From contig CM037783.1 of assembly GCA_021229015.1 (NCBI GenBank), forward strand, positions 57,184,169 through 57,248,168: a stretch of 64,000 nt of DNA, written 5' to 3'. The notes under the pieces are model-generated. The model worked only from the letters and a program-made list of their open reading frames with translations. It was not told the origin of the DNA and searched no databases. Source of the stretch: Solen grandis (taxonomy: Eukaryota; Mollusca; Bivalvia; Adapedonta; Solenidae). The first letter of the stretch is position 1; every line of letters begins with the position of its first letter. Made by a program: the position numbers and the translations under genes. This document shows, piece after piece, positions 55,001-58,000 of this stretch.

Positions 55001-58000
55001 TAATTTATTGAACAATTCAAAAAGTTTAACTTGTGTGGACAAAAATGTTAGTGTTTTGTTGATGGTCAGCATTTATGTCACTTATAAAAGTCAAACCAGC
55101 TCTGAAATATTAAAACTTTAAATGCATGTTCTGTTTCTACATTATTTTGAATTATGTTAAGTTGAATTTTGCCAATTCAGCAAGAGGATGTGCCTGTACA
55201 TGATGGGTGTGATGTGTTATGTTGCAGGGTGTTGCTGCGTGTGCGGACCTTGTACTACCTGAAGCATGAGGTCCTAGGAGATGTGGTGGAACAGATAGAC
55301 CAGGGTATACATGTCAAGTGAGTTGCCAGCTTGTAATATGGTCTTGATTACAAACTTTTAGATCCGTGGGTCATAAAATTGTCTTACCACAGTTGTGGCA
55401 CTTGATACAAAGTGATGTTCCAAAGTTCTTGAAGTCTTCAGTCTTTTAGATGCTAAATTGAAAACATGAACCTGTCATCAGGATGAATGAATTGATGATG
55501 ATCATTTAACACATGGTGAAAGATATGTCTTTTTTGGTCACTATATAACTTGGAATAATTCCAGGGATATCTCGAACCTGCCAGCACCTATTGCTGACAA
55601 CGAGCCACCAACGTTCTGGTGGGACGAACTTGCAGACAAGTCGCTTCTGATTGGAGTGTACAAGCATGGGTATGAAAAGTACAACTTGATGCGTCAGGAC
55701 CCCACCCTCGTCTTCCTTTCCAAGTGTGGGCCTCCAGATGGCGCTGCACTGGCCGCTGAACTTAAAGATGATGATGATAATGAAAAGTGAGTTCTAGGTT
55801 CTAACTTGGTGGCAGTGCCTTGATTTTTGTCATACCAATTAATCATTTATTACCCCAATGGGTGCATCCTGCCCTTTTACATCATGTCCTTTCCTACTCT
55901 CACATTACATGGAGATAGGTGGTATGCTGAGGTATTAATCACCTTTAGTGATAGTTCTGGTTTCATTTGACATGTGTACTAGTTTCTGGGATTGGTTCCG
56001 ATGATGAGTAGCCATGCTAATACCTAGCGTGTGTTGCTGGTAGACTTCAGTGTCCCAGCCGCGTGATGAGTTGACACTGCTCTCATATACCTGAGGAAAA
56101 ATAACCTCCAGAAACAAATTTGATGAATTAATTGATCAAATAAGAATAAAAAAAGAAAAAATATAAATATACAATATAAGATCAACATTCTGTTGAAAGT
56201 TAAAAAAACTGTTAAAAAACAACAACCCAAAAACATTCCTACCACAGTCTCATTTATAAGAATATAGTGTCTACTATTGTTATATGAAAACCATAGAAGT
56301 AGCTGATGTTTCTATAAATTGTCTCCTTCCCAAACTTAATCCTGTAACATTTACTATGGTTGTTTTAGTGAGGACCTTGATGACACCAGTATTCTGAAGG
56401 ATGATGATGAAGAATCTCTGTCCTGTGCGGCTGATGCTGCATCTGCGGCGTCCACTCCCAAGAACCCGCAGCCCAGCGGTGAAGGGGTAGGAGAGGAGAA
56501 CCAGGAGGAAGGAAAGTTCTCGTTCCCCACGTTCTCTGAAATGAACACACGACTAAGGAAGATCATCACCAACTACCAGCGAGACTTCAAGAAGCAGCAG
56601 CTGAAGATGCAGCAGCAAGCCAAGGTCAGTAGACAGTGCCCACTGGGACTGACTTGTCTGAGCCTGAGATTTATCTCAACTCAAAATTTTGAAGATTTAA
56701 AACCCACCAATTTCTCTCTCCACTTTAAAATTTGAATTTATACAACTTTTGACTTCTTGACCTAGAAATTGAAAATATTTAGCAGATTTTATTTTTATAC
56801 TTACTTATAGAATATGGTGTACAGTTACATAAAATTACTTACAAAATTATAATGATAAAGATTTTGAAAATGAGGGAAGTTTCTATTCGAGATGTTTGAT
56901 GAAAAAATGGCTTAGACTGAATATTAGTGAATTGCATGTGAGTTGCAGTCACAGAGAATTTAAGGTGGATTTTGTTTCTGAGGTATAAGTTGACGTGTTA
57001 GAGTACATTTTAGATGTTCATACATATAGTGGATGACAAATTTATGTCCGGGATTGGTTCCGATGATGAGTAGCCATGCTAATACCTAGCGTGTGTTGCT
57101 GGTAGACTTCAGTGTCCCAGCCGCGTGATGAGTTGACACTGCTCTCATATACCTGAGGAATCTTCACCGTAAGGATATAACACTCTCTAGTGCTTAGTTT
57201 TGTTGTAGTTGTGAGAGTAACAAGAATTAAATTCTGTTTACAGAAAGTTGAAAAACGAGAAAGATTAGATGCTGTTTTCCGTGAAAGAGAGGCTAGGAGG
57301 AGGGAAACTCTTCAAAGGTAAAAATGATATTTCCTGTTGTTGCTTTTGTTCCATTACAAAATCTGTTTTGTTTTGAGTTTATACTAAATAAATTATACAG
57401 TAGTGGTTTGTGGTTGAAATAATCATTATACAGATTAATTGAATTATTTATTCTCATATGTTGATGAAATTGTTTACCAATTAAGTCTAAATAGAATGCT
57501 CATGCATTAACGTATAAACTTGGAAAAACAACAATTTTCTGAAAGGAGAAAATATAAGATACAATTTCATGTAAAGAGATCAAACCTATCTGTTTCAGGT
57601 GGACACGAAGAGAGGAGACAGATTTCTACAGGATTGTCTCCACCTATGGTATCGAGTTTGACCGAGTGAAGGGACGTTACATTTGGGACAAATTCAGGGT
57701 CATGGCAAAGCTGGACAAGAAAACAGATGAACAGCTGACAGAGTATTTCATATCCTTCTACCACATGTGCCTGCGTGTTTGTCGCAAAATAAAGGAGGAA
57801 GGTATGTCTAGATGTCTGTGTTTTGTGCATGTGGAACAAATGAAATTTTCATTTAACCATTTCCCTCATATAGACTCGTTTTGACGCCCTCAATAGGTAT
57901 CATATAAGGCCTGATCTGCAGAAACCCACAGTTAAACCTTACCAAATTTAATTATAAAGTTTCATTTCCAGACCACTGAGGAGCAGCGAACAGCATAAAA

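Follow-up and report, generated by a model that had tools for sequence, protein, structure and literature searches.

Two identical copies of a small RNA gene lie on either side of a single exon of a CHD6-9 gene and, judging by their sequence, are very likely real box C/D snoRNAs of the known snoU6-53 (SNORD8/SNORD9) kind. Both were analysed within a window of 64 kb, which is the whole stretch of DNA studied and to which all coordinates refer. Taken together, the observations are probably best explained by intron-encoded guides for U6-A53 that had an ancestral CHD6-9 gene as their host and that reached the two-copy state later and locally. Expression of the RNAs, methylation of U6 and the ancestral linkage are parts of this best explanation that we infer.

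Pairwise comparison showed that the copied units, located on the + strand at 55988..56098 (copy 1) and 57050..57160 (copy 2), share 111/111 nt at an offset of 1062 and that their flanks are unlike from the first base on either side. In both copies, boxes C and D were found near the ends and closed by a terminal stem, the arrangement of a box C/D RNA. Box C GATGATGA (56000..56007 in copy 1; 57062-57069 in copy 2), box C' GTGATGA (56063..56069; 57125-57131) and box D CTGA (56091..56094; 57153-57156) are exact in both copies. The terminal stem TTCC/GGAA is formed by 55996-55999 and 56095-56098 in copy 1 and by 57058-57061 and 57157-57160 in copy 2, with mature RNAs of about 55996-56098 and 57058-57160, respectively. 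The sole degenerate box is the D'-like CCTA (56023..56026; 57085-57088), which differs at two positions from the CUGA of the Rfam consensus. The guide GCCATGCTAAT (56011..56021; 57073-57083) complements U6 positions 50-60 exactly, and in both copies it is the T at the fifth base before CCTA that pairs with U6 A53. The U6 letters used for this pairing are those of human U6, from which the U6 of this animal may differ. The U6 stretch AGATTAGCATG can also be derived from the U4/U6 pairing shown in PMC6461891. Folding indicated that the guide would be able to pair with the adjoining downstream TAGCGTG in the free RNA. A function as U6-A53 guide is well supported by these features.

A search with a covariance model for a SNORD8/SNORD9-type RNA, the check suggested in the earlier note, recovered both copies at full length above the curated cut-off of Rfam family RF00377 (snoU6-53). 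The note's further claims, an exact complement of U6 50-60 and A53 in register five bases ahead of the D'-like CCTA, held in both copies when human U6 was used for the pairing. Copy 1 scored 36.9 bits (E 2.2e-4, 55996-56099) and copy 2 scored 37.2 bits (E 1.8e-4, 57058-57161), exceeding the cut-off of 36 bits by just 0.9 and 1.2 bits; the E-values refer to the 64-kb window searched with 4227 families. Positions 1-110 of the 110 in the model were covered in 2/2 copies, with the region from D' to C' left unaligned by the model. RF00377 is presumably a family built from vertebrate sequences, which would account for the small score margin. The two snoU6-53 copies were the sole matches in the window, none of the other families among the 4227 reaching its own cut-off. 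The bacterial RNA CrcZ, found in a permissive Rfam scan at 8736-9150, had the same E-value as copy 1 (2.2e-4) with 30.8 bits against a cut-off of 95; the curated cut-off together with the anatomy, not the E-value, was therefore used as the criterion. CrcZ, mir-297, MIR6426 and mir-1253 (57977-58063) were dismissed with scores far under their own Rfam cut-offs, and so was snoZ7 at 56852-56922 (18.4 bits against a cut-off of 43).

The exact guide GCCATGCTAAT occurred twice in all in the 64-kb window, at 56011 and 57073, with no third exact site; when one mismatch was allowed, 2 further sites were present among the 4 matches listed. For the combination of TGATGA, a spacer of 0-4 nt and the guide, the expected number of chance occurrences is 4.5e-5 in 128 kb of the same base composition. 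The pattern TGATGANTNGCCATGCTAAT was also matched by 7 stretches in a genome contig collection and 4 in a viral contig collection. None of these 11 stretches contained an Rfam snoRNA at cut-off (the 3 Rfam matches were all tRNAs), and they are thus probably chance matches. A differently spaced guide pattern, CHD relatives and the 18S pattern each gave 0 matches in the viral contig collection.

The CHD6-9 host gene could be recognised over 45814..59112 on the + strand, from the C-terminal part of the helicase to past the HTH domain. Its exons were located by tblastn with four homologues at 45805-59075, the last exon probably ending at 59112. The joined exons matched HTH_CHD6-9 (PF23078, E=3.3e-35) and Helicase_C (E=1.3e-16) in Pfam. 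A Pfam scan of 49000-63999 in two of the three + frames gave 0 families, probably owing to the division of the domains among several exons, and the first 188-aa piece matched a CHD1-type HTH model alone, below cut-off. A gap of 100 N is present at 45672-45771, and CHD exons were found downstream of it only. Because of this gap, and since tblastn with the four homologues detected no N-terminal SNF2/chromodomain exons upstream of it in the window, either the join or the length of the intron is in doubt at this point. A 45-nt tandem repeat (53432-54268, 19 copies, 94% matches) occupies the CHD intron between the exons at about 53063 and about 54285.

The relationships of the host were examined by a protein search in which 7980 candidates were scored and 7587 matches obtained, the best 120 of which were used. 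Among these 120, a protein of Lottia gigantea ranked first, being 59% identical across 99% of the query, and those that follow include a CHD7-like protein of Saccoglossus, a Helobdella protein and CHD8 proteins of vertebrates. A tree was built from 25 rows, the window gene and 24 hand-picked, species-named rows from the 120. It grouped the window gene with Lottia and Helobdella (support 97/97) and placed the 12 vertebrate rows in a separate clade (support 100/100); the tree was rooted at its midpoint, its deeper forks are weak and two rows fill less than half of the columns. Measured by path length to the window gene, the tick Rhipicephalus, a short row, is nearer (0.94) than Lottia (0.97). 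The host would most likely be a lophotrochozoan CHD6-9 gene outside the vertebrate duplications. The earlier identification of the host as a CHD gene is borne out by the HTH_CHD6-9 domain, the tblastn exons and the CHD homologues, and its position apart from the vertebrate CHD6-9 clade by the tree. That it is a mollusc gene is plausible given the best match to Lottia gigantea, but the tree resolves the lophotrochozoan grouping only.

Three host exons on the + strand surround the two copies. The exon upstream of copy 1 (55565..55786) has a GTGAGT donor, the exon between the snoRNAs (56369..56624) ends just ahead of the HTH_CHD6-9 domain, and the match to this domain begins 3 residues into the exon downstream of copy 2 (57244..57317). 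Both introns are GT-AG introns that carry the snoRNA in sense, copy 1 in the phase-2 intron 55787-56368 (582 nt) and copy 2 in the phase-0 intron 56625-57243 (619 nt). The phase-2 intron interrupts the codon of the middle N in DDDNE-N-EDLDD, and the phase-0 intron follows QQQAK. The reading frame is open across the 4 joined exons around the snoRNAs, in agreement with the earlier description of two identical box C/D RNAs flanking one CHD exon. A distance of 83 nt separates the end of copy 2 from its 3' splice site; for copy 1 the distance is 270 nt. Passages in PMC10234308 give the optimum for C/D snoRNAs as 40-50 nt before the branch point, and state that terminal stems can offset distance and that expressed intronic snoRNAs are mainly farther away than assumed. 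The spacing of copy 2 would fit this optimum with a branch point about 35-40 nt away from the splice site.

The flanks of each copy could pair into an external stem, 55982-55989 with 56108-56115 at copy 1 and, by a different sequence, 57042-57049 with 57173-57180 at copy 2, both on the + strand. The energies of both were in the lowest 1-2% compared with random window positions (0.017 and 0.011). For the unique flanks alone, the comparison with random positions gave 0.20 and 0.10 and the comparison with shuffles 0.094 and 0.044; when the shared arms were fixed, 0.054 (copy 1) and 0.076 (copy 2) of the flank shuffles were equally stable. Such stems, weak and built from unlike flanks at each copy, are regarded as a lead only.

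The window was also scanned for a box C and a box D with a stem of 4 or more pairs, the criteria having been widened after the first scan and the sight of a second array. All 10 candidates obtained lie on the + strand, with none on the - strand; in 60 shuffles analysed with the widened criteria, the mean number was 0.28 and the highest 2. The 10 candidates comprised the 2 snoU6-53 copies, 3 units at 48904-49787 and 5 units at 39901-41246. No Rfam family was found at cut-off in either of the two C/D-like arrays.

The region 48904-49787 is a tandem array with units of about 121 nt in the CHD intron between the exon ending at 47281 and the exon starting at about 49979. Its units contain box C ATGATGA, the sequence GAGATCCAACT ahead of a CTGA, and box D CTGA, and the array body is present in 7 copies within 18 mismatches. 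In the 6 full units, 2/58 columns of the body and 19/66 columns of the spacer were variable (p=1.8e-4). The D' guide GAGATCCAACT complements AGTTGGATCTC, which we take to be the stretch of 18S rRNA near human Gm644. Its sequence suggests an array of C/D snoRNAs whose guide would fit 18S rRNA.

The region 39890-41258 consists of five copies spaced 196-200 nt apart and a diverged sixth at 41185, upstream of the 100-N gap, where no CHD exon was found by tblastn with the four homologues. The copies carry ATGATGA, ATGATAA and CTGA (replaced by GTGA in the copy at 40485), enclosed by a stem AGCTACGA/TCGTAGCT with 8 pairs in 5/6 copies. The sixth copy, which differs at 7/72 positions, retains both box C and box D as well as the D guide and the stem of 8 pairs. 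Variable columns in 4 units amounted to 3/71 in the body and 15/132 in the spacer, a difference that was not significant (p=0.12). The D guide ATCACTCGCCGAA fits CGGCGAGUGA, presumably a conserved stretch of LSU rRNA. This region looks like an orphan C/D snoRNA array. Elsewhere in the window, at 36865-37802, two repeats of 392 nt (2.0 copies) and 86 nt (2.0 copies) adjoin each other, and their units appeared by eye to be partly inverted copies.

The snoU6-53 copies resemble human SNORD8 (mgU6-53) and SNORD9 (mgU6-53B) in box architecture, in the guide GCCATGCTAATA, in the A53 register and in having two copies per host; the host belongs to the CHD6-9 family as well, as would be expected of orthologues by position. 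They differ from this family, RF00377, in having CCTA and not CUGA as D', and from SNORD8/SNORD9 in that the two copies are identical and are hosted by an invertebrate CHD6-9 gene outside the vertebrate clade, not by CHD8 itself. The match to the human CHD8 arrangement that had been proposed stands for family, target and CHD6-9 host, but not for a likeness of the two copies by descent. Few long-retained guide-host pairs are known besides SNORD100 and RPS12. Tables in PMC6466398 and PMC6023535 list SNORD8 and SNORD9 with host CHD8 and target U6-A53, so that the pair of U6-A53 guides in human CHD8 named in the earlier note is corroborated, and Am53 appears among the human U6 marks given in a portion of PMC7960923. 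SNORD100 is described in a section of PMC3412847 as retained in one host, RPS12, from basal metazoans to vertebrates, and is likewise a C/D snoRNA kept in a single host gene. It is a guide for rRNA in a ribosomal-protein gene, whereas snoU6-53 is here a guide for U6 snRNA in a chromatin remodeller.

In a tunicate survey (PMC5006418), snoU6-53 is counted as lost in Didemnum relative to the ascidian clade, and so is implied in that clade, and just 11 snoRNAs are assured in the bilaterian ancestor. A survey table for chicken in PMC2653536 lists guides for U6 A47, C60 and C62 and none for A53, which may be a survey miss or a real absence. Among the listed papers with an open-licence PMC full text, no snoU6-53 or CHD snoRNA host in a protostome was found by title or abstract, and the main text of PMC3511168 contains no mention of CHD, CHD8, SNORD8, U6-53, snoU6-53 or RF00377.

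An ancestral guide-host pairing would most simply explain why two lineages have this guide in one gene family, and we infer from this that the retention may predate the bilaterian split. In the proposed course of events, snoU6-53 would have entered the CHD6-9 gene before protostomes and deuterostomes separated and stayed there, and a single guide in a single ancestral host would have given rise to both the vertebrate (CHD8) pair and the present pair. The copies would be released from the spliced introns, and the released RNAs would bind C/D proteins and direct fibrillarin to 2'-O-methylate U6 snRNA at A53. The present two-copy state would reflect a later local duplication, or an identity upheld by gene conversion. 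Identity of 111/111 nt within unlike flanks points to recent duplication or ongoing conversion, and the two-copy arrangement is therefore not to be counted as ancestral. It is probably not an ancestral state, and the human and present two-copy states may be independent. The copied unit starts 12 nt upstream of box C and thus takes in 8 nt outside the terminal stem on that side, and neither copy showed by eye a long A-tail or a target duplication (AAAT follows copy 1 and TCTT follows copy 2), so that simple retroposition of the mature RNA is not the explanation that first suggests itself.

Real snoU6-53 genes could also have entered the CHD6-9 gene independently here and in vertebrates, as snoRNA copies shift between introns and long, broadly expressed genes make good landing sites. 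The hosts of snoRNAs do change, those of Trichoplax being different from the human ones (part of PMC3412847), the 111-nt unit has been copied here and is hence mobile at least locally, and a further C/D-like array in an intron of the same gene suggests that the gene accepts such elements. That the same guide should arrive in one gene family out of thousands would, however, be improbable by chance, and independent entry is considered unlikely.

Several observations count against intron-encoded U6-A53 guides with an ancestral CHD6-9 host: the thin Rfam margin, the E-value shared with CrcZ, the degenerate D', the possible self-pairing of the guide, the 270 nt of copy 1, the restriction of the host link to two lineages, the chicken table with no A53 guide and the difference between the snoRNA hosts of Trichoplax and human. 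The margin of 0.9-1.2 bits and the degenerate D' would also suit decayed or unexpressed copies, or a dispersed snoU6-53-like repeat, with no function. Such an origin seems very improbable, as boxes C, C' and D and the guide are exact in both copies, both copies are in sense and the 64 kb contain no third exact guide as a dispersed repeat might. The slightest probability is given to a real U6-A53 guide kept chiefly for an effect on its host, in which the snoRNAs or their stems would sway the splicing of exon 56369-56624. This exon is flanked by both copies, unlike flanks are able to form an external stem at each, and intronic snoRNAs reportedly control host splicing via intron pairing; the stems are nevertheless weak, since 0.054 and 0.076 of the flank shuffles are equally stable. 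An ancestral guide in the CHD6-9 gene with later local copying remains the preferred reading.

The ancestral reading can be carried further, to a picture that we rate at about an even chance. The undivided CHD6-9 gene of early animals would have hosted a U6-A53 guide that was kept in protostomes and vertebrates and coupled the output of the remodeller to the modification of U6, and in the lineage studied here the gene would have become a multi-snoRNA host, with the array at 48904-49787 and its guide fitting 18S rRNA. The two copies are a likely protostome member for widening the RF00377 model. If true, the retention of a non-ribosomal host for a U6 guide would provide a dated test of selection versus inertia, and a possible selective hold would be the matching of remodeller expression to splicing capacity.
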